DNA from: Pectobacterium araliae
GTDB lineage: Bacteria; Pseudomonadota; Gammaproteobacteria; Enterobacterales; Enterobacteriaceae
Reading direction: 5' to 3'
DNA length: 64,000 bases
Assembly (NCBI RefSeq): GCF_037076465.1
Contig: NZ_AP028908.1
Location: 434,001-498,000, forward strand
In this document: piece after piece, positions 19,306 to 54,488 of the stretch
Layout of the letters: each line of letters begins with the position of its first letter
Position numbering within the stretch: position 1 is the first letter of the stretch
The notes under the pieces: generated by a model
Told to the model about the DNA's origin: nothing
Seen by the model: the letters and a program-made list of their open reading frames with translations, nothing else
Database searches by the model: none
Position numbers and translations under genes: made by a program

Positions 19306-19507
19306 GCACACCAAGTGCGCAAGTACGGTGCTACAAATAACGGGTTATGCGGTTTCTGTCAATAAACAATCTGTCGGTAAACGACAAGCTGTCAGTAAAC
19401 GACAGGGCATAAACCGCTTTTAGCAAGAAAAGGGATCTCAATCGGGATTTTAAGGGATACAATCGATTCAGTCACTTTGAACTCATGCTTAGAGAGAAAG
19501 TCGCATT

Positions 19508-36018: not shown

Positions 36019-36094
<76 letters not shown>

Positions 36095-36245
36095 ATTTCT
36101 TTTCTATAGATGTACATCAAAGTCTGTAGCTCTTTGATTTAACAGGGTAATCGCTCTGTTGAGCATCCAGCGAAATCCGCTGAAAACCACCGTCAACCAC
36201 GCCGAAGTAATACATAAATTAGTACACGAAAATCGGGTGCGTTAC
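36095..36245 (+). repeat. tRNA-adjacent scar, left copy (related to 54147-54297)
   Basis: The bases after the first tRNA-Gly align loosely but in the same order with those after the second: AGTCTG, a small hairpin (AACAGGG / CTCTGTT at 36141-36160), TCCAGCGAA, an ACCACGC-like block, TTAGT-CA, and an A-run before CGGGTGCG. In the right copy this stretch leads to an integrase start. I read both as remnants of the junction left by related tRNA-targeting elements. The left copy has no integrase. Confidence 0.65.
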
Positions 36246-36490
36246 GGATGCAACGCCTGTGCCGCTCGGTACACCTCATCCCGTCACCTCAGTATTTCCC
36301 TGTCGTCCCCAGCGTGACGTTGCGATGGCGTCCCATACCCGATACCGCTGTGATAGTGCTTTTCGTTATATCAACGCGTAAATACTCCCACCCAGTCCCG
36401 CGCCTCTTCCCGCGTTGAACCCTGACGACGGCTATTCCGGCACGTATTTCACCGTCCGGAACAGTGACTCCACATACGCGTTATCATTAA
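36240..36490 (-). pseudogene. IS3-family transposase (OrfB), C-terminal remnant
   Basis: On the minus strand, 36435-36488 encodes NDNAYVESLFRTVKYVPE, a hallmark of the IS3-family integrase core with its last catalytic glutamate. Further on, GYGTPSQRH and DEVYRAAQALHP follow, in the order found in intact OrfB proteins, but stop codons and shifts separate them. No intact OrfA or inverted repeats are visible nearby, so the element is dead. Confidence 0.75.
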
Positions 36491-36835
36491 CTCACCCGCG
36501 GGCGACTGGCGATGAGTCGTTTTATTATCGAGTTCGGTGACCGCCTGAGCGACCACTTTTAATAGGATGGAAATTACACAAAATTATTTACAGGGTCCTA
36601 TTTGGATCTATCATAAAAGGCCGGATAACATGGAAGAGATTAGAGGGATATAACAATTTGTCAGAAAAAATATGATTTTCTCTTCTCAGGATAAGCGCTT
36701 ATTCAAGTTTGAATATGTTATTAAAAAAGCCTGCTGTTAAGCAGGCTATCAAGGGATTTTACTCATTATTTTCATCTGATGATTAGGTAAACCAGAGTAC
36801 ATGATTACATGTGAAGGAGAGAACCAAAATAAATG

Positions 36836-37174
36836 CTAAAAATATTTCTTAGCTGCATCAAGTATCCCCTGTGAAGTCAATTCCCTGTCAGAAGCCACGT
36901 AAATAATGGCATGATCTCCAGTCAATGAAGGAAAACCTGCAGACATTATCTGAAGATGTGTTTCTTCACCATTTGGGTATCCCTGCCTGATAGAGGAAAT
37001 ACCTTTTAGAACGGTCATGACCTTACAGGGTTCGGCATTAAAAAAAACAAGGACTTCTATCATATGCCACCATGGTTCTGTTAGTCTTTTCCATAACGCC
37101 ACCTCTTCGATACAGGGAATAATTTTTTGCAATAAACCTGCCAAGACTATGTGATATGTGCAAAAGTCTTGCAA
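36836..37174 (-). CDS. Hypothetical protein, unrecognised
   Basis: I do not recognise this family. The longest frame (112 residues) would start at TTG, with no ATG until the methionine in WWHMIEVLVFF, so the true start may be internal or the gene 5'-truncated. The C-terminal 75 residues look like a folded domain: IEVLVFFNAEPCKV, GYPNGEETHLQIMSAGFPSL, then GDHAIIYVASDRELTSQGI. No membrane span or signal peptide. The gene is AT-rich and alone on its strand, next to the cold-shock cluster; 36491-36835 before it holds no further gene. Confidence 0.5.
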   Translation of the reverse strand: MQDFCTYHIVLAGLLQKIIPCIEEVALWKRLTEPWWHMIEVLVFFNAEPCKVMTVLKGISSIRQGYPNGEETHLQIMSAGFPSLTGDHAIIYVASDRELTSQGILDAAKKYF

Positions 37175-37271
37175 TTTTCTTTTTTTACATTTTTAAAGCT
37201 AAATAAAATTAAAACAAGCACCCACTTGATCAACGGTGTATGGTGACTGTCCATTAAATCAGGAAATGCCC

Positions 37272-37433
37272 ATGTCTGGACGTAAAAACACACAAGCCAA
37301 TCGTAATCACTTAGTCAAATGCCCATGCCCAAACTGTGCAAGGGAGTCTGAGCATAGTTTTAGTCGTGTCCTGAAAGGATCCCAACTTGCCTGTCCCTAC
37401 TGCAGTACACTGTTCAAATCGACGCAACGATAG
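37272..37433 (+). CDS. ynfU: YnfU-family zinc-ribbon small protein
   Basis: 53-residue protein with two CxxC knuckles (CPCPNC and CPYC) separated by the conserved ESEHSFSRVLKGSQL, closely like E. coli YnfU, a small zinc-binding protein of unknown role. The start is ATG 37272, preceded by AGGAAAT; a longer frame from 37236 lacks a ribosome site. It stands in front of a cold-shock cluster. The downstream YmcF-like protein has the same two-knuckle plan. Confidence 0.8.
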   Translation: MSGRKNTQANRNHLVKCPCPNCARESEHSFSRVLKGSQLACPYCSTLFKSTQR

Positions 37434-37768
37434 AACAGATGCATATCCAGGTGATAAAGGTTATTTATTTCAAAACCCTGCTCACTTAGTGATGTTAACT
37501 GGCAGATGCCATTAAGGTAATATCAAGGGCGTGATGCTTTCGGAGGCTGCCTGGCCTCTTACGCACTTTATTATTTAACAAGCAGTTAGCTTCTGCTTTT
37601 AGACTTTTCATGCAGCAGGCCTGCATTTCATCACATCGGTCAGCACACTCATACATGTGCAAAAATATGCTGACCTGATATTAAGAATAAACTGCCTTTC
37701 TCTAAATTAATTTATGGATCTGTCTACTCAGGAATAATCCTTCATCGTTGTTGTAGATCCACAAAAAT
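37434..37768. other. Intergenic, nothing recognised
   Basis: 335 bp of AT-rich sequence between ynfU and the convergent csp gene. I see no frame, tRNA, clear terminator or repeat in it. Confidence 0.5.
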
Positions 37769-37987
37769 TTATTTATCGCAAAGTATTACGTTTGCAGCCG
37801 CTGGGCCTTTGTCACCACTGTGTATTGCGAATTCAACTTTCTGTCCTTCAAATAAGGTTTTAAAGTTGTCGCCGTTAAGCGAAGAAAAATGAACAAAGAT
37901 ATCTTTGCTCCCATCAAGAGGAGAGATGAAACCAAAACCTTTGTCTTCGTTAAACCATTTTACCAGGCCTTTAATTCTTGAGGTCAC
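37769..37987 (-). CDS. CspA-family cold-shock protein
   Basis: Small RNA-binding beta-barrel of the cold-shock domain type, acting as an RNA chaperone. 72 residues, with intact RNP1 (KGFGFI) and RNP2 (IFVHF) and the conserved [11 protein letters not shown] start, so it should bind single-stranded nucleic acid. I start it at GTG 37987, where GGGAG lies just upstream (only three bases, unusually close); a GTG at 38002 adds five residues. Divergent from a CspH-like gene, with shared promoter-type repeats between. Confidence 0.9.
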
Positions 37988-38006
37988 ACTGACTCCCGTC
38001 ACACAT

Positions 38007-38244
38007 TATAGTATTGATAGTAAACGTATAGTATTAAACGTATAGACTCAAAAGAAGGGGGATGTCAGCGATAACGCCTGATAATGAGGACTGCCCGAAA
38101 AATATTTAACGTTCGTTTGTACATCGAACTGATGGAATCCATTAAGGCACGGGAAATTATAATAAGCAAATTATATTTTAGCCGTCCAGCGATCCTGCAA
38201 GGAAAATTAAAAGTGACAATATAATTTTTTCAACGTATAGTATT
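38007..38244 (+). repeat. Three exact copies of TATAGTATT in the csp/cspH intergenic region
   Basis: TATAGTATT occurs at 38007-38015, 38027-38035 and 38236-38244, the last two within a longer shared AACGTATAGTATT. AACGTATAG also recurs at 38037-38045. The first two copies lie just upstream of the minus-strand csp gene, the third 26 bp upstream of the plus-strand cspH-like gene. On the minus strand, TATAAT at about 38004-38009 could be a -10. A shared regulatory site is inferred. Confidence 0.55.
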
Positions 38245-38269
38245 TACGTGTTTTTAATAAGGAATTAAC

Positions 38270-38482
38270 TTGTCCCATAAAATGACAGGAATTGTCAAAA
38301 ATTTTGACATTCTCAGTGGTAAAGGTCTCATCACCCCTTCAGATGGCCGAAAAGATGTTCTGCTTCACATTTCAGCCGTTAACTCCCGCGAATCAGAATT
38401 ACTCATCCCAGGAAGCCGTATTGAATTTTGTCGGATCAACGGTCTCAGGGGGCCTGTGGCTGCGAATATTTATCTTTCTTGA
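38270..38482 (+). CDS. cspH: CspH/CspF-like divergent cold-shock protein
   Basis: 70-residue cold-shock-domain protein of the divergent CspF/CspH type. It keeps the overall fold pattern ([37 protein letters not shown]) but has lost the nucleic-acid-binding aromatics: RNP1 is KGLITP instead of KGFGFI, RNP2 is VLLHIS instead of VFVHFS, and the KWF tryptophan is asparagine. It begins at TTG 38270 after AAGGAA. RNA binding is probably weak; the role of this class is not known. Confidence 0.85.
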
Positions 38483-38563
38483 ATTTCAGTGCATCAAATT
38501 AAATAGATTAAAATTTAACCAAATGTGATACGGTGAAGTTCATTCATTGAAAGGTTAATGATT

Positions 38564-38728
38564 ATGTCCATTATCGATTACGCAATGAAACTCTTCAGCG
38601 GTGCGTCTACCGCCACTGCCGCCTGCCCTGTTTGTGGACTAAAATCAGCTCAATCGGTGTCAAAAATCCGTCGCAATCAGGCCATGCTTTGCCCCGGGTG
38701 TAAGGCTCTGTTTATCTCCCGACGCTAG
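38564..38728 (+). CDS. ymcF: YmcF-like cold-shock-associated zinc-ribbon protein
   Basis: 54-residue protein starting SIIDYAMKLFSGAS, then two zinc knuckles, CPVC (about 21) and CPGC (about 43), ending FISRR. It resembles the small protein YmcF found downstream of cold-shock genes in E. coli. The start ATG 38564 follows AAAGGTTA. It lies 81 bp after the CspH-like gene and is probably co-transcribed and cold-induced; function unknown. Confidence 0.75.
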   Translation: MSIIDYAMKLFSGASTATAACPVCGLKSAQSVSKIRRNQAMLCPGCKALFISRR

Positions 38729-38762
38729 TTCCGACCGAAAAACCGCAGACAGAGCCCATGTT

Positions 38763-38773
38763 CTATACTTAAG
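38763..38773 (+). promoter_or_regulatory. Sigma-S-type -10 element upstream of the glucan synthase
   Basis: CTATACTTAAG matches the extended -10 preferred by RpoS (CTATACTTAA), with a C before the hexamer. It lies about 113 bp before the glucan synthase start. No strong -35 is seen, which is normal for RpoS. It suggests stationary-phase or osmotic-stress expression. Confidence 0.5.
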
Positions 38774-38885
38774 TTAAACTCCAGCAGCTGTTAAATCCCT
38801 GATGCTTTATGCCCATCCTGAGAGAACGTTTCTGAACTGATTTCGCAACTGCTCCTGCGCGCTAACGTCGCATCAGAGCAATGCT

Positions 38886-41800
38886 ATGAAAATGAACCCC
38901 AGAGAGTGGTTTAACCGCTCCCGTATTCCGACGAATGCCTCCGAAAACGTTGCGTTTTTGGCGAACGATCCTGCCGGTGAAAGTAATTCGCGGTCAGAAC
39001 TCTTTTCGACCACCCAGATGGAACGCTACGGTCAGAAGCTGGCGCAGACCCATAAATTATCGCCAGATAAACTTCCTTATTACCTTCTGAAAAGGCTCGG
39101 CGACAATGAGGTTGTCATCACGCAAAACTGCTATGAGCTTAACGCGGGTAAAAAGACGAGTATCATGCCCGCCGGGGAGTGGTTGCTGGACAATTATTAT
39201 CTGATTGAGGAACAAATCCGCACTGTCCGCCAGCACTTGCCGAAAAGCTTTGGTAAGGGTCTTCCATCGCTAATGTCGCCGCTGAATTGTCCACGAATTT
39301 ACAATATTGCATCAGAGGCCATTGCTCACGGTGATGGCCGCTGGGATACCGCCAGCCTGACCAGCTTTCTCACCGCCTATCAACAGGTGACACCGCTGAC
39401 ATTAGGTGAAGTCTGGGCCTTACCGGGGATGCTGCGTCTGGCGCTGATTGAAAATCTTCGTCGTATCAGCATGGAGGTGATAAAAGCTCAGCAGGACAGA
39501 AATCTGGCAGATACGTGGATAACAAGGATTTTCGAATGTGCAGAGAGTGTGCCTGCTGATTTAATCATGGTGGTTGCCGATATGGCGCGCTCCCGTCCTC
39601 AGTTAACCAGTGCGTTTGTCGCAGAACTGGTGCGGCGCCTGCAGGGACATGGAAACGCACTGTCGTTACCTCTGACCTGGGTTGAGCAGTGCCTCCGGGA
39701 ACAGGGGATAACCACCGACGTTCTCATTCATCGCTTCAATCAACAGCTTGCCGCCAGCCAGCTATCCGTCAGTAACAGCATCGCGGGTCTGCGATTACTG
39801 AGCGAAACGGACTGGGCTGATTTCGCCGAAGTGATCAGTGTCGTCGAACAGACATTACGCAATGATCCTGCCAGTATCTATCCTCGGATGCATTTCAATA
39901 CCCGGGATCATTACCGCCACGTTATTGAGATTCTGGCCAGAGACAGTGGTCTCAATGAGCCAGCGGTTGCTAACAGGGTGCTGGCGCTTTCAGGGGAAGC
40001 GGCTCCCGACACACTGGAACATCACGTTGGCTATTATCTCGCGGGCGAAGGTCGACAGCAGCTGGAAATTCAACTGTTGGCAGACACCTCTAAGCTCATA
40101 CGTTTGCGGCACAGTTTCAACAGAATAACCCTGCTGTCATGGCTTGGAAGCCTGGCGTTGTTGACTACCGCAACGACAGCGGCAATATTGGACGAAACTG
40201 CCCTGCAGGGCGCAGATTGGCTGCTGATCGCGGTGGCATTGCCTCTTATTATCGCTCTCACTCAGTTAATGAGTGATTTGCTCAGTGACGCAACAGCTCG
40301 TTTTCGCGTTCCTCGTCCATTGCCCAGGATGGATTTTTCAAACGGCATTCCCGCTGATAGTGCAACTATGGTCGTCATCCCCTGCATGCTGACTAGCCAC
40401 GACAGTTTCAGCAAACTTCTCACCAGTCTTGAAGTCTGCTGGCTAGGGAATCAAAACGAAAATCTCAGATTCGCTCTGCTCACCGATTTCGCTGATTCTG
40501 AGAATGAACCCTCGCCGGAAAGTAATGCTCTGCTCAGACAGGCGATCGCCGATATGCAGGCGCTTAATCGCCGCTATCCCTCCAGCCGCCCGCGTTTTTA
40601 TCTGCTACACCGCCAGCCGGAATGGAACCACGCAGACGGAACGTGGATGGGCTATGAACGCAAGCGGGGGAAACTGGCGTTGCTTAACAGCTGGTTGCGT
40701 CATCCGGGGATACAATTCGTCAGCGTTGCAGATATGCCTGCTCACCTTTTACCGGATCACATTAAATACGTCATTACCTTGGACAGTGATACGGTGCTAC
40801 CGCGCGATACGGCGCACAAACTGGTCGCCACGATGGCGCATCCGCTGAATAAGCCAGAGTATGATCCGGTACGCCAGAGGGTTGTCAAAGGATTCGGCAT
40901 TCTGCAACCCGGTCTTGCGGAGGAGATACCGCGTAATGGTCAGGGACGTTACGCCACCATCCGCAGCAGCGTACCGGGCAATAACCCCTATTCGATGATG
41001 TCTTCGGATATCTATCAGGATCTCTTTGGGGAGGGATCGTTCGTGGGCAAAGGGATTTATGATGTCGATATCTTTGTGCTGGCGACCGCCAACACCTGCC
41101 CGGAAAATCTGGTTCTCAGCCATGATTTACTCGAAGGATGCTATGCGCGATCGGGTCTGCTGAGTGAAGTGTTACTCTACGAACAGTACCCTAATAATTA
41201 TCTTGCGGATGTCGCGCGTCGTTCACGCTGGATCCGGGGCGACTGGCAGCTGCTTAACTGGCTGAAGCCACACGTCAGAAAAGCCGATGGAACGCGGGAT
41301 AAGAATCCGCTGACCGCGCTTTCTTACTGGAAATTACTTGATAATCTGCGTCGCAGTCTGGTCGCCCCCTCTTTACTGGTATTGCTGTTCTTCACCCTGC
41401 TTTGGGTACCCAATCCATTTTACTGGCTTGGCGTACTGACGCTGATATGGCTGTTGCCTGCGATCCTCAGCATCGCCCACAACCTTCTGCATAAACCCCC
41501 GCGTCGCCGCCTGACGCCGCATCTGTCAATGGTGGGAACTGGCGCGCTGAAGCGTCTGTCAGGTATCGGCCTTAATTTTGCGATACTGCCGCACGAAGCC
41601 GGATATTCGCTGAAGGCGATAGCCGTGACGCTATGGCGACTGGGGGTTAGCAAGCGTAACCTCAGCCAGTGGGTGAGCCACAATCCGGCCAGCAATCAGT
41701 CCAGCCCCTCTGTTGCTCGTTTTTATCAGGCTATGTGGCTGAATGTTGCAGGTGGCGTGACACTGACAATACTGACTGGACAATGCGCACCGCAACTTCT

Positions 41801-44800
41801 GGCGATTGCTTTGCCGATCGGTTTGTTATGGTGTCTGGCGCCGCTGCTGATGAGCAGGCTGAGTCGCCAGCCCGTGCGTAAGGTGTTTTCGCCAAATCAG
41901 GAACAAAAACAGCTGTTACGCCAGACAAGTCGTGAAATCTGGGCATTTTTTGAGACCTTTGCTACAGAAAAAGAGAACTGGCTTCCACCTGATAACTACC
42001 AGGAAATACCGCAACCGACGGTGGCCCATCGTACTTCTCCTACCAATATTGGCCTTTCCCTTATGGCTAATCTGACAGCCTGGGACTTTGGCTACTTGCC
42101 CGGTGGAGAGGTGCTCCGGCGCGTGTCGCTCACGCTCGACACGCTGGATAAAATGGAGCACTACCGGGGCCATCTCTACAACTGGTATGACACCCGTACG
42201 CTGGCCCCCCTCAGTCCACGCTATGTCTCGAGCGTCGACAGCGGCAACATGGCGGGGCATTTGTTGACACTGCGTGAAGGGTTGTCCGCCATGCGTCATC
42301 AGCCTGTTTTAAACACTCAACAGATACTGGCAGGGCTGAACGATACGCTGGATATTCTGGAAAAACAGTGGGGCCAGAACCCGCCTGACAGCCTGCTGCT
42401 GCTGCGCAAACACTGCCTGAGCGCGGTGTCGCTACCTCCGCAGGCATTTTTCAGCGAGCTGAAAAAAATGCGCACCCAGTGCAACCATCTGACAGCGCAA
42501 TGTCATCAGGGGTCTCCCCTCCAGATGCGCTGGGCAGGGCGTCTGGAGTCTCAACTGGTACAGCTTTGCCACGAATGGTCGCTGCTGCTCGGCTGGTTAC
42601 CCACATCCTGGAACGAACAGACGCTGCCGACTCTGAGCGGGCTTGCCCGTGCGGTATTTACTGGCAAAGGAACACCTCCGGCGTCAGCGACGGAGCAGGC
42701 CAAGATGCGACTCAATATTATCAACGAGCTTGAACAGCGACTGTATGAGCATTCCCGGATGGATTTCGCCTTTCTGTACAGCGAAGCAACCTGTCTGCTC
42801 AGTGTTGGTTATAACTGTGACACGAATACGCCTGATAAGAGCCATTATGATCTCCTGCCATCTGAAATCCGCCTGACCAGTTTTCTCGCTATAGCGACTA
42901 ATCAACTGCCTCTTAAAAGCTGGTACGCTCTGGGGCGGCTGTTTACCACGATTGATAATGAAACTGCCCTGATGTCATGGAGCGGTTCTATGTTTGAATA
43001 CCTGATGCCGAATCTGGTGATGCCCACCTGGCCTGGCAGCCTGCTCGATGAGATGAGTCAGTCGGCGGTTATGCGCCAGATTCACTGGGGGAAAGAACGC
43101 GGGGTACCATGGGGCGTTTCAGAGTCTGGTTATCATGCTTTTGATGTTCAGCATAATTATCAGTACCAGGCATTTGGCGTGCCGGGTCTCGGTCTGCGCA
43201 GGGGACTCGCCGATGACATGGTTATAGCCCCTTACGCCACATTGCTGGCGCTGATGGTCTCCCCACAGAGAGCCTGTGAGAATCTGTTCAGACTGCAAAA
43301 AAATGGCGCACATGGCGAATACGGTTTTTATGAAGCGCTGGATTATACACCCTCACGCCTCGCAACTGGTCAGCTCTATGCGGTGGTTCAGTCCTGGATG
43401 GCGCATCACCAGGGCATGGCATTTCAGGCGCTGGCCCATGTGCTGCTTGACGCCCCCATGATTGAGCGATTCATGTCCAGTACGGCCTTCCGGTCAGCGA
43501 GTCTGCTGTTACAGGAGCGCGTGCCGGATGCGCTCGATCTCTACAGCCCGCGCCGTCATTTTGAATCTCATGAGGGCCGGGTCAAACCTGTTCGCTATGA
43601 ACCCCGTATTTTCTATGCCGTGGACACACCAGCCCCGGATATTCAGCTGCTGTCCAACAGCCATTATCATCTGATGTTAACTGCGACCGGAGGGGGTTAC
43701 AGTCGCTGGAGAAATATTGCTCTTACGCGTTGGCGCAGTGATACCACCCGCGATAACTGGGGTGCATTCTGCTATATCCGCGATACGCAGACGGGCGATG
43801 TATGGAGCAATACCTGGCAACCGATAGGCAATGCCAGCGAACACGACGAGGAAGTAATATTTACCGATGCGAGTGCTGAATTCAGACGCACCGTCGGGGG
43901 GCTCAGCGTCAAAACTCAGATTGTGATCTCCCCAGAGGATGATATAGAGCTGCGACGGCTTACACTGATTCATCGTGGCCGCCAGCCCCGCGCTCTGGAA
44001 CTGACAACCTATGCCGAAGTGATACTGGCGCCTGATGCCAGCGATCTGGCACACCCTGCATTCAGCAATCTCTTCATTCAGACAGAGTTAAATCCTGAGC
44101 GTGACGCAATTCTTTGCCACCGACGCCCGCGCTCACCGGATGAACTGAGCCCCTGTCTGTTTCACATGATGGTGGTGCATGGCGATAACCGTCATAACGT
44201 CTCGTTTGAAACGGACAGGGCAAAATTTCTTGGTCGTGGCAGAAGCCCTGCTGATGCCTTGGCAATAGCGGGCGGAGGGGCGCTCAGCAACACTTCGGGG
44301 TCAGTGCTGGACCCTATACTGGCGATACGCCATACCATTATTCTGCCGCCGGGGCAGCCAGTTACGATTGATATCATTTATGGCATCAGCGATACCCGCC
44401 AGCAGAGCCTGACATTGCTGGAAAAATATCGCGATTACCCTATCGCCGATCGCGTCTTTGAACTGGCTTGGTCTCACAGTCTGGTGGTATTACGTCAGAT
44501 GAACGCCAGTGAAGATGATGCCACTTTGTTTAATCGTCTCGCCAGCGCAGTGCTTTACCCTGTCCAGGAATTGCGCGCCGAAGGCCTGGTGATCAGCCGT
44601 AACCGACGTGGTCAGTCCGATCTGTGGGGCTGGGCAATTTCAGGTGATCTGCCGATAGTGCTGCTCAGCATTACCAGCGAGGAAAGTATCGCTTCCGTTA
44701 CCATACTGATTCAGGCACACCGGTACTGGAGACAGAAAGGACTGGAGGTGGATTTGGTTATCCTGAATAACAGCCCCGGGGGCTACCAGCAGGGATTACA

Positions 44801-47468
44801 AAATCAGATCATGGATTTAATTTATGCCGGGTCTGAAGTAAGTTTGCTGGATAAAACGGGCGGGCTTTTTGTTCGTAATGGCGAGCACCTCTCCGCTGAG
44901 GATAAGTTGCTTTTGATGAGCGTGGCCTGCCTGTATCTTGATGACCGTGCGGGTGGAATTTATGAGCAGCTTAACCAGCGTATTCACTCCCTGAAACCTC
45001 CGGCCAGAGCATTCATTCCGCATGCTGTGCGCGAACGTAATCAACATACGGACTGGACACCCGATACCCGTCAGTTACGCCATTTCAACGGATACGGTGG
45101 ATTTTCTCAGGACGGTAGAGAGTATCAGATTGTCCTGCGGGAAAATGCGCTGACACCTGCCCCTTGGTCAAACGTATTGGCAAATTCTCATTTTGGTAGT
45201 GTGATTTCAGATGCGGGACAGGCCTATACCTGGTATGAGAATGCGCATGAATACCGGTTGACACCGTGGGAGAACGATCCGGTTAGCGATCGCAGTGGTG
45301 AGGCGCTTTACCTGCGCGATGAAGAGAGCGGTGAGTGCTGGTCACCGACGACATTGCCTGTTCGCGGACACGGTGATTACCTGACCCGCCATGGTTTTGG
45401 TTATAGCGTCTTTGCCCATCGTGAGAGCGGTATAGACAGCGAGCTGACGGTTCTGGTTGCCGAAGAGGCACCGGTTAAACTGGTGCTCCTGACGCTCAGT
45501 AACACTTCTGGACGGACACGCAAACTCTCCGTCACTGGCTATGTGGAATGGACACTCGGAGGATCCCGAACCCGCTCAGCCCCTCACATTGTGACACAGG
45601 CGGTCAGTATCTCTGGCGGCTGCGGGGTGCTGGCGAACAACTTTTACGGTGATAACGGTGGCGGGCGTACTGCATTTTTTGCTGTCAGCGGTAATGACTG
45701 TTCGCTGACGGGTGACCGCAGGGAGTTTATCGGCCGTAATGGTTCCTTGCACGATCCGTCTGCTATGAAACTGCGCAGGCTTTCAGGTAAGACGGGAGCC
45801 GGTCTGGATCCCTGCGGCGCGGTACAATCGTCTGTCACATTAATTGACGGGGATCAGAGGACATTTATTTTGGTCCTCGGCGCAGATGAGAATCATGTCC
45901 GCGCTCAGGAGACGCTTGCCCGTTATCTGAATGAAGATACGGTCCGCCAGGAGCTGAACCGGGTTCATAAACGCTGGCACAATGTGCTCGATAAAATCGT
46001 GGTTAACACCCCCGACACTTCCGTAAATTTGCTGGTCAATGGCTGGCTACTGTATCAGACAGTAGCCTGTCGCCTTATGGCTCGCAGTGGTTACTATCAG
46101 TCTGGTGGTGCTTTTGGTTTTCGCGATCAACTGCAGGATACGCTGGCACTGAGTCATGCTGATCCGAGCCGGATGCGCGAACAGATAATACTGTGCGCAT
46201 CACGGCAATTTATCGAGGGAGATGTGCAACACTGGTGGCACCCTCCACACGGCAACGGTGTTCGTACCCGCTGTTCTGATGACTACCTGTGGCTTCCGCT
46301 GGCCGTTTGCCACTATGTGGAAACGACAGGCGATAAGGATGCCCTGGAAATACGCATCCCTTATCTAGAGGGGCGTCCGCTCCAGCCTGGCGAAGAGTCC
46401 GTCTATGACACGCCAGTCATTAGCGGCACTGAAGAGACACTCTGGTTACACTGCGTCAAAGCTATTCAGCATGGGCTGAGGTTCGGAGAGCATGGCCTGC
46501 CGCTTATGGGGGCAGGCGACTGGAATGATGGGATGAATCGGGTCGGCATTGAAGGCAAAGGGGAAAGTGTCTGGCTTGGCTTCTTCCTGTACGAGGTTTT
46601 GCAGCGTTTCGCCCTCCTGGCCGAGTGCAGGCAGGACGACAGCATCGCCTCGATGTGTCGTTCGCAGGCCTTGCGACTGCAAAAAAATCTCGACGTCCAC
46701 GCCTGGGATGGCGAATGGTTCCGGCGCGGGTATTTTGACGATGGCACTCCCTTGGGGGCAAAAGCCTCGCAAGACTGCCGGATTGATGCTATTGCGCAAA
46801 GTTGGTCTGTATTGTCTGGGGCAGCAAGCCCGAGTCGCTGCGCACAGGCCATGCAGGCGCTGGATAAGCACCTTGTGGATAACGAGGGTGGATTGATTAA
46901 ACTTTTAACTCCCCCTTTCGATGGACATGGCCCGAATCCGGGTTACATTCAGGGGTATCTTCCCGGCGTGCGGGAAAACGGAGGGCAGTACACCCACGGT
47001 GCCATCTGGACAGTTATGGCATTCGCCCGGATGGGGAATACAGAACGCGCCTGGCAACTCTGGTCAATGATCAACCCGATAAACCATACGCTGAATGCAA
47101 ACTCGGTCGAGATTTATAAAGCCGAGCCTTATGTCATGAGCGCTGATGTCTACAGTGTCGCTCCCCATACCGGGCGTGCAGGATGGAGCTGGTATACTGG
47201 TTCCGCAGGCTGGGCCTACCGTCTTCTTACCGAGGAATTACTGGGGATAAAACGTTCTGGCACCGCCTTTACTGTTCATGCCCGGCTGCCGGATGCGTGG
47301 CCGTCTTGTGCTATGACATATCAATATGGCGAAAGCCATTATCAGATTAGTGTTTCACGCGGCGACGGAGAATATAGGGTTACACTGGATGGCGCTCTCC
47401 TGCCCAGTGACAGAATCCCGCTGCTGGATGATGGACAAAACCATACGGTTGAAATCATTCAAAACTGA
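38886..47468 (+). CDS. Cyclic beta-1,2-glucan synthase (NdvB/ChvB/Cgs type)
   Basis: Giant 2860-residue inner-membrane enzyme that makes osmoregulated periplasmic cyclic beta-1,2-glucan from UDP-glucose; the length fits ChvB and Cgs. Order: N-terminal region with HEXXH-free helical part (to ~400), two membrane spans (~415-465), GT84 glycosyltransferase (~490-800) with DSD at 633-635 and RRSRWIRGDW near 780, further spans (~825-1000), a carbohydrate-binding region, and a C-terminal GH94 phosphorylase domain with GDWNDGMNR near 2544-2552 that sets ring size. ATG 38886 has a weak ribosome site. These enzymes are best known from Agrobacterium, Rhizobium and Brucella, where they aid host interaction. 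It has no operon partner on its strand. Confidence 0.93.
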   Translation: MKMNPREWFNRSRIPTNASENVAFLANDPAGESNSRSELFSTTQMERYGQKLAQTHKLSPDKLPYYLLKRLGDNEVVITQNCYELNAGKKTSIMPAGEWLLDNYYLIEEQIRTVRQHLPKSFGKGLPSLMSPLNCPRIYNIASEAIAHGDGRWDTASLTSFLTAYQQVTPLTLGEVWALPGMLRLALIENLRRISMEVIKAQQDRNLADTWITRIFECAESVPADLIMVVADMARSRPQLTSAFVAELVRRLQGHGNALSLPLTWVEQCLREQGITTDVLIHRFNQQLAASQLSVSNSIAGLRLLSETDWADFAEVISVVEQTLRNDPASIYPRMHFNTRDHYRHVIEILARDSGLNEPAVANRVLALSGEAAPDTLEHHVGYYLAGEGRQQLEIQLLADTSKLIRLRHSFNRITLLSWLGSLALLTTATTAAILDETALQGADWLLIAVALPLIIALTQLMSDLLSDATARFRVPRPLPRMDFSNGIPADSATMVVIPCMLTSHDSFSKLLTSLEVCWLGNQNENLRFALLTDFADSENEPSPESNALLRQAIADMQALNRRYPSSRPRFYLLHRQPEWNHADGTWMGYERKRGKLALLNSWLRHPGIQFVSVADMPAHLLPDHIKYVITLDSDTVLPRDTAHKLVATMAHPLNKPEYDPVRQRVVKGFGILQPGLAEEIPRNGQGRYATIRSSVPGNNPYSMMSSDIYQDLFGEGSFVGKGIYDVDIFVLATANTCPENLVLSHDLLEGCYARSGLLSEVLLYEQYPNNYLADVARRSRWIRGDWQLLNWLKPHVRKADGTRDKNPLTALSYWKLLDNLRRSLVAPSLLVLLFFTLLWVPNPFYWLGVLTLIWLLPAILSIAHNLLHKPPRRRLTPHLSMVGTGALKRLSGIGLNFAILPHEAGYSLKAIAVTLWRLGVSKRNLSQWVSHNPASNQSSPSVARFYQAMWLNVAGGVTLTILTGQCAPQLLAIALPIGLLWCLAPLLMSRLSRQPVRKVFSPNQEQKQLLRQTSREIWAFFETFATEKENWLPPDNYQEIPQPTVAHRTSPTNIGLSLMANLTAWDFGYLPGGEVLRRVSLTLDTLDKMEHYRGHLYNWYDTRTLAPLSPRYVSSVDSGNMAGHLLTLREGLSAMRHQPVLNTQQILAGLNDTLDILEKQWGQNPPDSLLLLRKHCLSAVSLPPQAFFSELKKMRTQCNHLTAQCHQGSPLQMRWAGRLESQLVQLCHEWSLLLGWLPTSWNEQTLPTLSGLARAVFTGKGTPPASATEQAKMRLNIINELEQRLYEHSRMDFAFLYSEATCLLSVGYNCDTNTPDKSHYDLLPSEIRLTSFLAIATNQLPLKSWYALGRLFTTIDNETALMSWSGSMFEYLMPNLVMPTWPGSLLDEMSQSAVMRQIHWGKERGVPWGVSESGYHAFDVQHNYQYQAFGVPGLGLRRGLADDMVIAPYATLLALMVSPQRACENLFRLQKNGAHGEYGFYEALDYTPSRLATGQLYAVVQSWMAHHQGMAFQALAHVLLDAPMIERFMSSTAFRSASLLLQERVPDALDLYSPRRHFESHEGRVKPVRYEPRIFYAVDTPAPDIQLLSNSHYHLMLTATGGGYSRWRNIALTRWRSDTTRDNWGAFCYIRDTQTGDVWSNTWQPIGNASEHDEEVIFTDASAEFRRTVGGLSVKTQIVISPEDDIELRRLTLIHRGRQPRALELTTYAEVILAPDASDLAHPAFSNLFIQTELNPERDAILCHRRPRSPDELSPCLFHMMVVHGDNRHNVSFETDRAKFLGRGRSPADALAIAGGGALSNTSGSVLDPILAIRHTIILPPGQPVTIDIIYGISDTRQQSLTLLEKYRDYPIADRVFELAWSHSLVVLRQMNASEDDATLFNRLASAVLYPVQELRAEGLVISRNRRGQSDLWGWAISGDLPIVLLSITSEESIASVTILIQAHRYWRQKGLEVDLVILNNSPGGYQQGLQNQIMDLIYAGSEVSLLDKTGGLFVRNGEHLSAEDKLLLMSVACLYLDDRAGGIYEQLNQRIHSLKPPARAFIPHAVRERNQHTDWTPDTRQLRHFNGYGGFSQDGREYQIVLRENALTPAPWSNVLANSHFGSVISDAGQAYTWYENAHEYRLTPWENDPVSDRSGEALYLRDEESGECWSPTTLPVRGHGDYLTRHGFGYSVFAHRESGIDSELTVLVAEEAPVKLVLLTLSNTSGRTRKLSVTGYVEWTLGGSRTRSAPHIVTQAVSISGGCGVLANNFYGDNGGGRTAFFAVSGNDCSLTGDRREFIGRNGSLHDPSAMKLRRLSGKTGAGLDPCGAVQSSVTLIDGDQRTFILVLGADENHVRAQETLARYLNEDTVRQELNRVHKRWHNVLDKIVVNTPDTSVNLLVNGWLLYQTVACRLMARSGYYQSGGAFGFRDQLQDTLALSHADPSRMREQIILCASRQFIEGDVQHWWHPPHGNGVRTRCSDDYLWLPLAVCHYVETTGDKDALEIRIPYLEGRPLQPGEESVYDTPVISGTEETLWLHCVKAIQHGLRFGEHGLPLMGAGDWNDGMNRVGIEGKGESVWLGFFLYEVLQRFALLAECRQDDSIASMCRSQALRLQKNLDVHAWDGEWFRRGYFDDGTPLGAKASQDCRIDAIAQSWSVLSGAASPSRCAQAMQALDKHLVDNEGGLIKLLTPPFDGHGPNPGYIQGYLPGVRENGGQYTHGAIWTVMAFARMGNTERAWQLWSMINPINHTLNANSVEIYKAEPYVMSADVYSVAPHTGRAGWSWYTGSAGWAYRLLTEELLGIKRSGTAFTVHARLPDAWPSCAMTYQYGESHYQISVSRGDGEYRVTLDGALLPSDRIPLLDDGQNHTVEIIQN

Positions 47469-47487
47469 CACTGACTCAAAACGCGCA

Positions 47488-47724
47488 TTAACATCTGCCG
47501 TTAATGCGCTGATTGTCTCTGAGAACATCAATCGCGGTCTGCATGGCGACTTTGTCATCCCGCCTTTTTTGCCTATCCTGCATCACCTGAAGGTACTCAA
47601 GCAAGGTTCGGGTATTAATCGGTCGGCCCTGTTTACCCACAGCCAGCACGGCTTTGCCAAGGATAATTTTCACTGGCGGCAACTGTGCAGGGTACCAGTC
47701 AAGAGTGTCTTCTGATTTCATCAT
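47488..47724 (-). CDS. AriR/YmgB-YcgZ-like small regulator
   Basis: Small all-helical protein resembling the C-terminal part of AriR/YmgB family connector proteins: IILGKAVLAVGKQGRPINTR then LLEYLQVMQD and a final AIDVLRD helix. In E. coli these proteins (YcgZ, YmgA, AriR) act on the Rcs phosphorelay and biofilm matrix genes and respond to cold and acid. I start it at the ATG pair near 47724 (78 residues, close to AriR's 88); the frame extends to 47841. It is convergent with the glucan synthase, 19 bp apart. The family call is from recalled pattern, not a search. Confidence 0.55.
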   Translation of the reverse strand: MMKSEDTLDWYPAQLPPVKIILGKAVLAVGKQGRPINTRTLLEYLQVMQDRQKRRDDKVAMQTAIDVLRDNQRINGRC

Positions 47725-47844
47725 AAATTTCTCATGGAAGGGTAGTGTATCATAAATCAGACATTCATTTTTCTTTTCAACGGTAGTGATGTGATGGATA
47801 CCCTTTCCTAAGGTAGTCAGTGCCATGGTCTTACCCAGCAATAA

Positions 47845-47989
47845 TGGACACGCGACTAAGTGAGTAAACTCTCAATCAGAGGTGACTCACATGACAAAGT
47901 CCATACCAACCAGCAAGAAGCCCCGTAAGCCACACACGCCTGAATTTCGTGAGGAAGTCCTGAAGCTTGCCGAACGCATCGGCGTGGTG
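47845..47989 (+). mobile_element. 5' end of an IS3-family element
   Basis: Starts with an IS-end-like TGGACACGCGACTAAGTGAG, then ATG 47891 opens an OrfA of 33 residues (TKSIPTSKKPRKPHTPEFRE, then EVLKLAERIGVV) before the homology ends abruptly at 47989 in unrelated sequence. The helix-turn-helix of OrfA is cut off. It is probably a deletion scar at the border between the glucan locus and the efflux genes. Confidence 0.75.
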
Positions 47990-48022
47990 GGGTGCCTATT
48001 TTTTGAATAATTAGGAAATGAA

Positions 48023-48440
48023 ATGATCCAAAATATGAAAGTGACAGAACCAAGTCTGCCTCATACCCCTAACAAGCGAGGGATTTCCACTGGGTCACCG
48101 TGCTGCTGGCTTGTGCATGTGGTTTGATCGCCGCCAACATCTACTATGCACAGCCACTGATCGGCCCGATCAGTGCAGGGTTGAACCTCTCAGAAGAGGC
48201 CACCGCCCTGATCATTACCTTGACCCAAGTTGGTTACGGGATCGGTTTACTGTTCGTCGTTCCGCTCGGTGATCTTTTTGAGAACCGTCGCCTTGCACTG
48301 ACAATTCTTGCTATTGGCGCAGTTGGACTTCTTATTTCAGGTTTTGTTACTTGATTGGAGGCTTTGCTTGCTGGTGCCTTGCTCATAGGGCTCGGTTCGG
48401 TGACGGTGCAGATCCTGGTTCCCTATGTTGGTTGCCACTA
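48023..48440 (+). pseudogene. MFS transporter (YgaY-like), 5' fragment
   Basis: From ATG 48023 the N-terminal tail runs to about 48085, then a frame change is needed for VTVLLACACGLIAANIYYAQ and PLIGPISAGLNLSEEAT. The longest clean piece (48100-48354) covers two or three membrane spans (ITLTQVGYGIGLLFVVPLGD), ends in a TGA-containing stretch, and is continued in yet another frame by ALLAGALLIGLGSVTVQILV. Nothing after the third or fourth helix remains. Not functional. Confidence 0.8.
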
Positions 48441-48453
48441 ACATCCGGGCGTG

Positions 48454-49875
48454 TCAGTCGGCAGGTCTGAGCATTAGCCGGAACAAGGCAAGGCTGGTGG
48501 CTGTCGCCGTCAGGTTGTAAAGCGTGGCCCAGGCCAGGGCTACGCCGTGCTGCGAGGCTGTGTCGCCCGCTTGATGTGCCAATTGTCCGAACAGGATCGT
48601 GCCGACAATCGTCACGCCCAGCGCATTGCCCAGGGTCTGCAACGTGCTCACCAGGCCCGATGCAACGCCTGCCTGAGCATCCTCGACTCGAGCCAGGATG
48701 CTGCCGAGTGCCGCAGGAATCGCTACGCCCTGACCGAATCCGTTGAGCACCAGTGCCAGTACCAGCCAGGGTAGCGCATGTGGAGCAGCCGCACCGACCG
48801 TAGCAGCCAGCGCCAGCCCGGCAATGAAAACCAACAAACCGATGATCAGCACCTTCTCACCCAGCGCGCCACGCAGGCGTGGTCCGAGCAGCGAGCCGGC
48901 GAAGAACGCCACGGCGGACGGAGTGAACACCATACCTGCCGCCAGCGGTGAGAGATGCAAGCCAGCCTGCAGCAGCAAGGTCAACGAGAAGAAGAACGAG
49001 CTGATGGCCGAGTAGAAGAGGAAGAAGCCAAATGTACCAGCCAGGAAGGGCCTGTTGCGAAGCAAGGTGACATCGAACATGGGCATACCGCCTGCACGCT
49101 GCAAGCGGCGCTCATGACAAAGAAACCATGCCCACAGGCCGAACGATCCAAGTGGCAGACTCCACGACCACCACGGCCAGCTGTACTCACGGCCCAGCAT
49201 GAGGGGAACCAGCAGTAGCGCGACGCCGGCCAGCGCGGCGAGCGTACCGGCCGAGTCCAGGCGTACACGGATGCGCGGGGTCGCCGGCAGGACGCGCAGA
49301 CCGACTATGATGGCGAGCAATCCTATGGGAACATTTATCAAGAACACCACGCGCCAGCCGATTACGCTGGAGGTCAGTTCAATCAGCCAGCCTCCGAGCA
49401 ACTGGGACACCGTGGCGGCTATACCCTGGACGGCACCAAGAATGGCGAAGGCTCGTGCGCGCTCAGCGCCGTCGAACAGCAGGCGAATTGATGCGAGCAC
49501 CTGCGGCATTAATAACGCGGCACCCGCCCCCTGGGCGATGCGCGCCAGGATCAGGCCATTGGCGTTCGGACTCAGTCCGCAGCCGAGCGAAGCGATGGTG
49601 AAGACGGCCATGCCCCACAGGAACATGCGCCGCCGACCCAGCATGTCCCCTAGGCGGGCACCTGTCATCAGGCCGATGCCATAGGCTGCGGCGTATCCCA
49701 CGAGCACCAGTTGCAGTTGCACTTCGGTTGGTGTCAGCCGCAGGCGAATGTCCGGGATCGCTACATGGACGATGAACAGATCAAGAATGACGACAAAGTT
49801 GCCGCTCAGCAGAATGGCCAATGCCCACCAGCGCCGGTGCCGGGGCAACGCAGAAATGGAATTAGAACTGGACAT
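48454..49875 (-). CDS. DHA2-family (14-TMS) MFS drug exporter
   Basis: Proton-driven multidrug efflux protein of the EmrB/QacA type. About 473 residues with 14 hydrophobic spans, antiporter motif LGDMLGRRRMFLWG after helix 2, and GGWLIELTSSVIGWRVVFLINVPIG typical of DHA2 (motif C region). I start it at ATG 49875 (SSSNSISALPRHRRWW); a longer frame reaches 49938 into the operator region. Divergent from a TetR gene. The base composition is clearly richer in GC than the neighbours and codon use is Pseudomonas-like, a sign of transfer. Substrate unknown. Confidence 0.9.
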   Translation of the reverse strand: MSSSNSISALPRHRRWWALAILLSGNFVVILDLFIVHVAIPDIRLRLTPTEVQLQLVLVGYAAAYGIGLMTGARLGDMLGRRRMFLWGMAVFTIASLGCGLSPNANGLILARIAQGAGAALLMPQVLASIRLLFDGAERARAFAILGAVQGIAATVSQLLGGWLIELTSSVIGWRVVFLINVPIGLLAIIVGLRVLPATPRIRVRLDSAGTLAALAGVALLLVPLMLGREYSWPWWSWSLPLGSFGLWAWFLCHERRLQRAGGMPMFDVTLLRNRPFLAGTFGFFLFYSAISSFFFSLTLLLQAGLHLSPLAAGMVFTPSAVAFFAGSLLGPRLRGALGEKVLIIGLLVFIAGLALAATVGAAAPHALPWLVLALVLNGFGQGVAIPAALGSILARVEDAQAGVASGLVSTLQTLGNALGVTIVGTILFGQLAHQAGDTASQHGVALAWATLYNLTATATSLALFRLMLRPAD

Positions 49876-49893
49876 CGGGATCATCCGATATAA

Positions 49894-49913
49894 ATATATA
49901 TGATCGTATATAT
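49894..49913. promoter_or_regulatory. Palindromic operator for the TetR regulator
   Basis: An AT-rich near-palindrome centred on GATC at 49902-49905 (ATATATGATCGTATAT), between the divergent transporter and regulator genes. It overlaps the likely -10 of the transporter, so the regulator could repress both genes from here. Confidence 0.5.
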
Positions 49914-49949
49914 ACACTAGCTGGCAGCAGCACGCCAAGGAAAACCATC

Positions 49950-50609
49950 ATGAATGAACGCACCCCAACCGTTTCCCGGCAGGATGGCCGCCGTCTGCGC
50001 GGCGATCGCTCGCGCAGCCTGATCCTTGCGGCGTCGATCCGTATGGCCTCGAAGGAGGGGCTGGAGAGCCTGACCTTCGGGCGTGTGGGCAGTGCTGCCG
50101 GCATGAGCAAAAGCAATATCCAGGTGCTGTTTGGCAGCCGGGAACAGCTTCAGATGGCCACGCTGGACGAGGCGATGGCGCACTATCGTGCATGCGTTGT
50201 CGAACCAGCAATGGCCGAGTCTTCACCGTTGGCTCAACTGACGGCACTGATCGATAACTGGTACCGATTTGTGAGCCGACTCGAACTGCCGGGAGGTTGC
50301 TTTCTCAACGCCGTCAGCAGCGAGTTCCGTTGTCGGCCGGGGTCGATCCGCGAGTGCATCGAGCGCTACCGCCAGGCAAAGCGGTTACGTTTTCGCGACT
50401 TGGTCGCACGCGCACAGGCCGCCGGTGAACTGGGAGCCGATCTGGATGTGGACGATCTCGTCTTCCGGTGGATAGCCTGCGAAGCTGCCGCTAACGTGGC
50501 TATTTTTATGCAGGACGAGGACGAGTTCACTCGTGCGCATGCGGCCGCTCTGGCACCGCTGTGCGGGAAACGCAGTGTGGCAATGCCGAACGCTGCAGAT
50601 ACTGCGTAA
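49950..50609 (+). CDS. TetR-family repressor of the adjacent exporter
   Basis: 219 residues. N-terminal TetR helix-turn-helix (about 20-68: ILAASIRMASKEGLESLTF, then GRVGSAAGMSKSNIQVLFG) and a C-terminal ligand-binding domain of the TetR_C_6-like type (GGCFLNAVSSEF). Divergent, 74 bp from the exporter start, with a palindrome between. GC-rich like the exporter. Its inducer is probably an exporter substrate. Confidence 0.9.
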   Translation: MNERTPTVSRQDGRRLRGDRSRSLILAASIRMASKEGLESLTFGRVGSAAGMSKSNIQVLFGSREQLQMATLDEAMAHYRACVVEPAMAESSPLAQLTALIDNWYRFVSRLELPGGCFLNAVSSEFRCRPGSIRECIERYRQAKRLRFRDLVARAQAAGELGADLDVDDLVFRWIACEAAANVAIFMQDEDEFTRAHAAALAPLCGKRSVAMPNAADTA

Positions 50610-50654
50610 AAAAGCGCCCTGCACGGGGGCACCTGGGCTCTGGGGAGTCAGGGA

Positions 50655-50900
50655 TCAGGCGAACTGCAGCCGTACGATAGGTAGGTGTTCGCGGTGTTCT
50701 GCCTGCCACAGATCGTAGGCTGCCTGCTCGGCAAGGTATTGTCGCGCGCTACCGAGACCGGCCAGTGCGCCCAGCAGGCAGCCAAAGGCGTTGGAACGGT
50801 CGCTGAGCACGACGAGGGACGTTTTCCCAGACGAGCGTGGCAGGGGGCTGACGGTTTTCGATGCGGGTTTGGTCGATGACATTGGCAAGCTCCACGTAGC
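50655..50900 (-). pseudogene. Fragment joined to topB remnant, probably from an integrative conjugative element
   Basis: The minus-strand frame ends LVVLSDRSNAFGCLLGALAG, then SARQYLAEQAAYDLWQAEHR and EHLPIVRLQFA, an orderly C-terminus with a stop at 50655. Upstream, other frames give LSYVELANVIDQTRIENR. No start codon with a ribosome site belongs to it. I do not recognise the family; it looks like the tail of a gene that normally lies near topB in such elements. Confidence 0.4.
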
Positions 50901-50907
50901 TGAGGGT

Positions 50908-51268
50908 TTAGGCGCCGGGAACGGCATCGATGATCTCGCTGGCGATCAGTTCGCCCTCCCAGTCAGCGTCAGTGGCGATGACCAGTTCGGTCGCTTTGCT
51001 CAGCAGGGCTTTGACGGCTTTGAATTGCGATGCTGTCTTTGATTTGACTTCGACACGACAGTGTTCGGGAATGATAGGTAACTGCTCGATGGACCAGCGC
51101 TTGTACTGCTCGCCATAGGCTTCAGGCGGAGCGGCTTCAACGAGGTGTCCGATGCACCAGGTTACGGTGATGCCTGAACCGATGAGGCACCCATACCTCT
51201 TTGGGTTGCCTCAGTACACGCCCGATATCTTTGCCTTGGGAGGGCTTTTCACATAGAAATAGCTTCAT
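50908..51268 (-). pseudogene. topB: DNA topoisomerase III (topB), N-terminal fragment
   Basis: Starts KLFLCEKPSQGKDIGRVL, the Toprim-domain N-terminus of element-borne topoisomerase III. After a one-base frame change near residue 20 it continues GSGITVTWCIGHLVEAAPPE, YGEQYKRW and VIATDADWEGELIASEIIDA, then stops. The usual TDADREGE has tryptophan for arginine here. Only about 120 of more than 600 residues remain. TopB genes of this type are common in integrative conjugative elements. Confidence 0.85.
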
Positions 51269-51602
51269 TGAATTCTCTCGGCACGTGAATCATGCCGTCG
51301 AGTATTCCCAACTGAAGACGTTAACGTTATAAAAAATACGGATTGCGAACCAACGCATTGGCACTGTCATATGGGGATTGTGGTTGTGTGTCGTGTGCCG
51401 GTTTATGGCAAGTCGATGCTGGCAGAGGATGCGACTATTGAGCCCCATTTGCGCAGAGCATCCCTAAGCATGTTTCGCTACAGCCTTCAACGATAGCAAT
51501 CGTTGGGCAGTAGATGTGTTTTCTGCCGATGTCGATGGTGTTGCATTGCCGCTGAAACAGGCTTTGTGAATCGGCCGAATCGCTATGTCGGCTTTCCCTC
51601 AG
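51269..51602. other. Intergenic, nothing recognised
   Basis: 334 bp between the topB remnant and the LysR gene. I see no protein or RNA feature; probably debris from the same mobile element. Confidence 0.5.
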
Positions 51603-52490: not shown

Positions 52491-52631
52491 GCACACTCCT
52501 ATTGATGACGTTAAAGTCATAAGTATTATGAAATTTAGCCTATTTTTCATTTATTTGCGATAAGCGATACTGCCAGGGAGCATTCAGGCGTGCCAATCGG
52601 TTGCGCGAAAATAGAGAAGAAAGGGCCTTAA

Positions 52632-53813: not shown

Positions 53814-53978
53814 CACTGGAGTTTGAGGTGCTTGAGCCTAGGTTGATAGACGGGCATTGGAAAAAATTTAGGGTTGAGCTTGCCATAAGAAGAATTCTGG
53901 TCCATAATGCTGTCCATCCTATGTAGGGATGAAGGGAAAAACCTTTAGTAATCAAAAGGTTAGAGTCTAATTTCTGGG

Positions 53979-53995
53979 CTCGTCTCCCGCTACAA
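53979..53995 (+). repeat. Degenerate copy of the tRNA-Gly 3' end (att-like)
   Basis: CTCGTCTCCCGCTACAA matches the tRNA-Gly 3' end CTCGTTTCCCGCTCCAA at 15 of 17 bases. It lies 76 bp before the second, intact tRNA-Gly. Tyrosine integrases recombine at tRNA 3' ends, so it may be a worn attachment site. Confidence 0.55.
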
Positions 53996-54070: not shown

Positions 54071-54146
<76 letters not shown>

Positions 54147-54374: not shown

Positions 54375-54488
54375 ATGGCACTATCAGACATGGCGGTTCG
54401 CCAAGCCAGGGCAACAGGCAAGGCCTATACACTTGGCGACATCGATGGTCTCTCCTTGGCTGTGACCGACGGTAATGCCTTCAACTAA
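54375..54488 (+). pseudogene. P4-type tyrosine integrase, N-terminal stub
   Basis: ATG 54375 opens 37 codons: ALSDMAVRQARATGKAYTLG, then DIDGLSLAVTDGNAFN and a stop. This is the N-terminal arm-binding start typical of P4/CP4-type integrases, normally about 400 residues. The catalytic domain is absent. It lies 228 bp after the tRNA in the orientation such integrases take. The element that carried it can no longer move by itself. 54489-54682 shows no gene. Confidence 0.85.

Follow-up and report, generated by a model that had tools for sequence, protein, structure and literature searches.

The DNA analysed here, called the window below, is a stretch of 64,000 nucleotides of Pectobacterium araliae (contig NZ_AP028908.1, positions 434,001 to 498,000). 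It carries a gene for a cyclic beta-1,2-glucan synthase that is preceded by a conserved noncoding leader RNA, accompanied by genes of the cold-shock type, and enclosed in a tRNA island (Table 1). An earlier interpretation made from the letters alone, hereafter the sequence-only reading, had placed this gene outside any operon, which leaves out of account ynfU, directly upstream on the same strand.

The synthase and its cassette

The synthase reading frame is open over all of its 2860 codons, and its residues 70 to 2834 align to the NdvB/ChvB protein of Agrobacterium tumefaciens (PDB 8rf0) at 1913 bits. Pfam recognises a Glycoamylase domain, two GH94 supersandwich stretches and a GH94 catalytic domain (402 bits), and the synthase is the sole match to PF17167 (GH94) in the whole genome. 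The GT84 portion was matched solely by a GT2-type Pfam model, with a score below the cut-off. We compared 18 A. tumefaciens positions, taken from the available parts of two published accounts (PMC10901819 and PMC10834661), and found 16 of them to be identical. In A. tumefaciens numbering these are D527, R586, D624, D626, Y694, D739, R770, R773, W774, R776, E1300, E1386, H1480, H1481, D2393 and D2528, which correspond to D534, R592, D633, D635, Y702, D747, R778, R781, W782, R784, E1327, E1413, H1507, H1508, D2414 and D2548 of the window synthase. Y702 is the position of the priming tyrosine. D1104 sits in a VDSGN context, and we infer from the alignment and from equal spacing (86 and 94 residues) that E1413, H1507 and H1508 are equivalent to Thermoanaerobacter residues. 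The sequence-only reading would have been refuted by a loss of key GT84 or GH94 residues, but these are kept together with the cyclisation residues. The synthase is a known kind of enzyme, and its gene is real and looks functional. Copies with stops or a frameshift were seen elsewhere (G214, G363, G419 and L002), and because such broken copies exist in several genomes the synthase seems to be dispensable in some hosts.

The genes around the synthase follow the order csp (minus strand, with a cspA thermoregulator RNA), cspF-like (plus), ynfU (plus), synthase (plus) and a gene for a 78-amino-acid protein (minus). This block, at about 37.56 to 47.77 kb, has counterparts of 88% identity over 10 kb in Escherichia coli and Klebsiella plasmids and in one E. 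coli chromosome, where lpxP follows the cassette. DNA similarity to the cassette was found in 52 PLSDB plasmids, 27 of them typed as conjugative, and the cassette occurs on plasmids of several enterobacterial genera. In nine annotated plasmid stretches, the lpxP gene after the cassette was intact in five, broken in one and absent from three. A synthase of any type was present in 77 of 392 genomes drawn from the family.

The neighbours of the synthase were surveyed in 61 loci, 31 of which have a synthase at least 77% identical to that of the window (L002, annotated as frameshifted, was kept in these counts). A relative of ynfU lies upstream in 28 of the 31 (two of them recognised only at E-values of 3e-5 to 5e-5), while the 78-amino-acid gene and lpxP lie downstream in 23 and 13, respectively. 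A csp cluster was present in 16 loci, and the cspA thermoregulator RNA in five of six related loci scanned. Since many loci are closely related, these counts are not independent. In plasmids, 38 of the 39 records with the 78-amino-acid gene (at least 80% identity) were also among the best 60 of 170 synthase records. On the evidence of gene order and DNA similarity, the synthase is part of a mobile cassette, csp<>cspF-ynfU-synthase-ydfK-like, that is often followed by lpxP.

The 78-amino-acid protein is 59 to 60% identical, over 77 to 78 residues, to E. coli proteins annotated as cold shock protein YdfK, and PF27475 was found in its listed relatives. It had been taken for an AriR/YmgB-like regulator convergent with the synthase; the convergent orientation stands, whereas the AriR/YmgB label was rejected, since the protein does not match PF10798 and the only match to this model in the genome lies elsewhere (C1:1702301). 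YdfK and YnaE are cold-induced, which goes beyond what the annotation says. 'Response to cold' is an annotation term for LpxP. In the available parts of published work, YdfK and YnaE are assigned to the Qin and Rac prophages, Qin carrying a divergent cspB-cspF pair (PMC5493296), and ydfK, ynaE and cspI are raised in long-term stationary phase (PMC7406224). With the thermoregulator RNA, the CspF-like and YdfK-like genes and, elsewhere, LpxP, the cold-shock setting is stronger than had been supposed.

Table 1. Features of the synthase locus and its island (positions in the window)
Feature	Position	Strand	Remarks
tRNA-Gly(gcc) no. 1	36019-36094	+	Insertion at its 3' end, which forms the left attachment site
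Island between tandem tRNA-Gly genes	36095-53994		17.9 kb
Small conserved open reading frame	36836-37174	-	Relative of a 75-amino-acid hypothetical protein beside the cassette in plasmids, E 1e-39
Second YnfU-like zinc-ribbon gene	37272-37433	+	PF23499, 87 bits
cspA thermoregulator RNA (RF01766)	37732-38133	-	Contains CspA-family gene 37769-38002
CspF-like cold shock gene	38270-38482	+	NF012007, 132 over cut-off 111
ynfU, zinc-ribbon small protein	38564-38728	+	PF23499, 27.7 over cut-off 27; directly upstream of synthase
TCTATACTTAA, sigma-S-like extended -10	38762-38772	+	Sequence match
Conserved 5' leader RNA	38784-38885	+	Roughly 100 nucleotides, between TCTATACTTAA and the start codon
Predicted three-way junction of leader	38784-38852	+	RNAalifold, 37 leaders
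Predicted alternative hairpin of leader	38850-38880	+	TGCTC pairs with GAGCA, hiding the likely Shine-Dalgarno GAG (38876-38878)
Cyclic beta-1,2-glucan synthase gene	38886-47468	+	2860 amino acids, uninterrupted reading frame, NdvB/ChvB type
YdfK/YnaE-like cold shock protein	47488-47724	-	78 amino acids; convergent with synthase
Right attachment-like copy of tRNA 3' end	53956-53994		Degenerate, 28 of 40 alignment columns match; normal 76-bp spacer next
tRNA-Gly(gcc) no. 2	54071-54146	+	Identical to tRNA no. 1

The leader upstream of the synthase

The stress-type −10 element that the sequence-only reading had noticed is borne out as a sequence match: CTATACT, an extended −10 which we take to be the sigma-S consensus, recurs in this position in 26 of the 35 distinct upstream regions (counted as sequence matches). 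From this putative promoter to the start codon, the DNA is far more conserved than its surroundings (30 loci; L009 fell below the identity limit). All leader analyses omit L002 because of its annotated frameshift. We compared the window with 20 loci chosen from the 36 others that have a synthase of at least 67% identity. Identities ranged from 0.70 to 0.97 for the leader, 0.68 to 0.93 for coding DNA, 0.34 to 0.81 for fourfold-degenerate sites and 0.30 to 0.85 for the region on the ynfU side, and the leader exceeded the fourfold sites in all 20 comparisons. For synthases of 77 to 93% identity, the leader values were 0.88 to 0.97 as against 0.42 to 0.81 at fourfold sites. Judged by this divergence, the comparisons show a noncoding leader under strong purifying selection.

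Such conservation might have another cause if the leader encoded a regulatory peptide (MPYAHPERTFLN or similar), and a 12-codon frame of this kind is kept, with some residues changed, in 30 of the 35 upstream regions, a set that omits L162. In the other five regions (L008 and L158 to L161), however, the frame is broken though the leader persists, and conservation runs on past the stop. In addition, the leader has no codon periodicity, and every frame has stops in at least some sequences; this column analysis, like that of paired and unpaired positions below, used 25 of 37 leaders, the 12 with indels being left out. On account of the broken frames and the missing periodicity we rejected the peptide, which we consider highly improbable.

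The leader is closely tied to the synthase. When at most two mismatches were allowed, a core of 21 letters was found in 35 of 392 genomes. In 29 of these it immediately precedes a synthase gene, and every one of the 26 matches with no more than one mismatch is among them. The six remaining matches, all with two mismatches, were taken as chance; a reversed control pattern matched one genome. No second copy of the leader was found in the window's own genome. Among 5426 E. coli genomes the leader occurs at seven places in seven genomes, every one at a synthase. A covariance model run against 394 genomes of the order matched 13. Six of these gave strong matches, each at a synthase, and the other seven gave weak ones (E-values of 8e-4 to 0.09); the best weak match, between genes that by eye are comM-like and ilvG-like, was taken as chance. 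No Rfam family matched the leader at gathering scores, and at E-values up to 5 there was one weak match, outside the leader. Synthases of 58 to 63% identity (L165, L166, L169 and L175; L011, L171 and L172) have leader motifs of their own, unlike the window leader, that are common within subgroups, such as CTTTGGGTCAGAT in four loci (L176 gave no start in this comparison).

The tRNA island and the ancestry of the synthase

The tRNA island named in the sequence-only reading is confirmed by the two identical tRNA-Gly(gcc) genes, which are covered by an exact repeat of 80 bases. Of 24 relatives in the genus, 20 show the empty arrangement, in which the two tRNA genes are separated by 76 bp; two of the remaining four had one exact tRNA copy in the fetched stretch and two had none. 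With its flanking repeat and the empty site in relatives, the island represents an integration of the classical type at the 3' end of a tRNA gene. An intact integrase was not identified by eye in the island, and to the right lie genes that by eye are broken. These two observations would fit a decayed plasmid or integrative element of which the locus is a passive, unexpressed relic. Against this, the 2860 codons are open, the catalytic residues are kept, and so are the promoter-like site and the leader; we regard a relic as very unlikely.

Some further features of this part of the window can be mentioned. At 47891-48010 lies a short remnant, MTKSIPTSKKPRKPHTPEFREEVLKLAERIGV, which by eye looks like the N-terminus of an IS3-type transposase OrfA, and after it, at about 48020-48440, a broken MFS-like gene (by eye). 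The region 48454-50609 contains an EmrB-type MFS efflux gene with a divergent TetR-type regulator, at about 60% GC and of foreign composition. Just past the second tRNA-Gly gene, a 37-codon piece at 54375-54488 resembles by eye the N-terminus of a P4-type integrase and therefore suggests a second, decayed insertion to the right. Elsewhere in the window, a lysine riboswitch (RF00168) lies at 19114-19306 on the minus strand.

The MscM protein encoded in the window is 97% identical to a cluster named Pectobacterium brasiliense, in keeping with the genus. Within Pectobacterium, 4 of 25 genomes have a synthase, two being of the window type (the window genome and G023, at 93%) and two of a 42% type. 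The phylogeny against ChvB and enterobacterial homologues that the sequence-only reading had proposed as a check was built with FastTree, long branches being flagged, from the window protein, 33 of 120 proteins listed (7990 matched) and 18 loci. The window synthase groups with those of Klebsiella, E. coli, Phytobacter and G023, within an enterobacterial clade that has 39 members and a support of 100, and this placement speaks against a recent import from alphaproteobacteria. The 42% type of Pectobacterium sits in a clade with alphaproteobacterial synthases and one from Pseudomonas.

A second kind of synthase, of this alphaproteobacterial type and about 40% identical to that of the window, was seen with a gene of the LpxL/LpxP family immediately upstream at L144 and L145 (Pectobacterium G005 and G012) and at L177. 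Such an upstream gene stands in three of the six loci with about 40% identity, and it may point to a second connection between cyclic glucan and the acylation of lipid A. The acyltransferase beside the Pectobacterium copies could not be called LpxP: it is of the same family, but its 482.5 bits are below the LpxP model cut-off of 517.

A possible switch, the fate of the glucan and comparison with known systems

RNAalifold predicts a three-way junction with the helices GCAG/CUGC, AAUC/GAUU, GAUG/CAUC and AGAGA/UUUCU, which is mutually exclusive with the hairpin that would hide the likely Shine-Dalgarno sequence. In the junction, 98.9% of the cells are paired, as against 32 to 48% with slid partners (best slid control 47.5%), and paired columns carry 0.38 minor letters on average while unpaired ones carry 1.03. 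The Shine-Dalgarno sequence is predicted to be unpaired with a mean probability of 0.04 as against 0.20 in shuffles (mean rank 0.20 in 30 related loci of at least 67% identity; L010 and L181 gave no such site). In computed ensembles of the window leader the junction has a probability of 0.80 at 5 °C but of 0.11 at 42 °C; several other leaders also favour the junction in the cold. Based on these models, a switch between junction and hairpin is plausible.

As to the destination of the product, the model for the ChvA/NdvA/Cgt exporter (TIGR01192) reached at best 294 bits in the window's genome, with a cut-off of 585, and did not pass its cut-off in any of 20 synthase-bearing enterobacterial genomes chosen for this comparison (the window genome and 19 others). 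Because no ChvA-type exporter passed the cut-off, the glucan may stay in the cytoplasm. According to the available parts of one report, E. coli without its own glucans, when given Brucella Cgs but no Cgt, keeps the product in the cell (PMC11071196). The proposal that the glucan replaces the OpgGH glucans is unlikely, as OpgG is still present in the genome and the ordinary periplasmic glucans should therefore remain.

We consider it moderately probable that an intact synthase in a mobile cold cassette is translated under the control of its leader and makes a product that acts largely in the cytoplasm. A sigma-S promoter, serving stationary phase or stress, would start a messenger with a leader of about 110 nucleotides, and this leader would alternate between the junction, in which the ribosome site is open, and the hairpin, in which it is covered, so that translation would be gated, probably in favour of cold or stress conditions. 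The enzyme would prime itself on Tyr702, extend beta-1,2-glucan from UDP-glucose and close it into a ring, with GH94 trimming its length and catalysis proceeding as in the known enzyme (PMC10901819, in the parts available). Much of the product may then have a cytoplasmic role, as a bulky compatible solute or as a cryoprotectant, next to the cold-response Csp proteins and, in relatives, the lipid A remodelling by LpxP.

Several observations weigh against this reading. Next to the RW motif, the enzyme departs from that of A. tumefaciens at two positions (Q771 is R and H772 is S here). The window's own copy of the cassette is without lpxP. The ChvA model is narrow: of four synthase-bearing genomes from outside the enterobacteria, it misses three and passes only in Phyllobacterium. 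The leader model finds nothing convincing at synthases of 53 to 66% identity, and homologous site-hiding hairpins in the Serratia/Rahnella-type synthases were not supported, the comparison with shuffles giving a mean rank of 0.54 (13 loci, 53 to 66%). Covariation in the junction is thin, with double changes in two pairs and three cells, and shuffled letters pair in 98.4% of its cells because most columns never vary, which makes junction pairing a weak support. For the hairpin covariation is nil (95.3% paired as against 95.2% in shuffles; main helix 98.9% paired), and the window leader has an unremarkable fold energy (z −0.68). Over all 37 leaders, the mean probability of the junction falls only from 0.42 to 0.27, that of the site-hiding hairpin stays at 0.40 to 0.43 and that of an unpaired ribosome site at 0.13 to 0.15; a general opening of the leader in the cold was accordingly discarded, being seen in some leaders only.

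The ordinary fold energy would also fit a leader that is conserved as a linear sequence, read by a small RNA or an RNA-binding protein, with the drawn structures being incidental, and a near-invariant leader leaves little covariation in any case. The lower variation of paired than of unpaired columns within the junction and the poor pairing of slid partners speak for structure instead, and we regard the linear alternative as quite possible, if short of probable.

The cytoplasmic role has to be set against export of the glucan as a host-contact factor, for plant immune suppression or colonisation, with the cold genes as unrelated hitchhikers. The host, which had been supposed to be plant-associated, does belong to a genus of plant pathogens, Pectobacterium, and the available parts of two reports propose such a role for Pantoea NdvB, leaning on cited Xanthomonas work (PMC3505739, PMC4070556). 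On the other hand, the neighbours of the synthase are repeatedly cold genes, the genome has no ChvA-type exporter over the cut-off, and the Klebsiella, Salmonella and E. coli plasmids with the cassette come from human or animal samples; this last objection is softened by the rarity of the cassette in E. coli (at least 11 records among the matches listed). A host-contact factor therefore seems to us rather unlikely. Because cold genes surround the synthase we favour, with modest confidence, a cytoplasmic or envelope stress role. We advance more tentatively, as a doubtful extension, that the leader could represent a bistable cis-regulatory RNA of a new class, one that frees the ribosome site in cold or stress, and that the cassette could be a portable enterobacterial cold-tolerance module, not a host-contact factor, whose cyclic glucan, unexported and cytoplasmic, would work in concert with Csp proteins and LpxP as a cryo- or osmoprotectant.

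Compared with known systems, the window synthase shares with ChvB/NdvB of A. tumefaciens (Cgs) the domain order, the length, the GT84, cyclisation and GH94 catalytic residues and the priming tyrosine. In contrast, 392 of 880 mapped residues are identical, the alphaproteobacterial synthases form a different clade, and the window synthase was found without a ChvA partner and with a cold cassette and a conserved leader. Enterobacterial NdvB homologues are in print for Pantoea LPP-1, P. ananatis and Serratia grimesii (PMC3505739, PMC4070556, PMC6113876), and the available parts of these reports contain no mention of a cold cassette or of a leader RNA. The Pantoea proteins are likewise synthases of Enterobacterales, the P. 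ananatis and P. vagans copies lying on plasmids and that of P. ananatis falling in the same clade, but they are 77% (P. ananatis) and 76% (P. vagans) identical to the window synthase; for S. proteamaculans, which stands in for S. grimesii, the value is 62%. The cold genes of the E. coli Qin and Rac prophages (cspB<>cspF, ydfK, ynaE) offer a similar divergent csp pair and YdfK-like protein, whereas their counterparts in the window travel with a glucan synthase. The cspA thermoregulator (RF01766), one of which adjoins the synthase cassette genes, follows a comparable logic of a cold-responsive 5' leader RNA, but the synthase leader matches neither this nor any other Rfam family. A search of the open-access literature found no description of the cassette or the leader RNA, and as far as this search shows the mobile cold cassette and its conserved leader are undescribed.

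Cyclic beta-1,2-glucans are best known as virulence and symbiosis factors of alphaproteobacteria. The spread of the enzyme among enterobacteria, including human-associated ones, within a set of cold-response genes therefore suggests a different use, and the conserved leader provides a small and directly testable handle on when and why the polymer is made.

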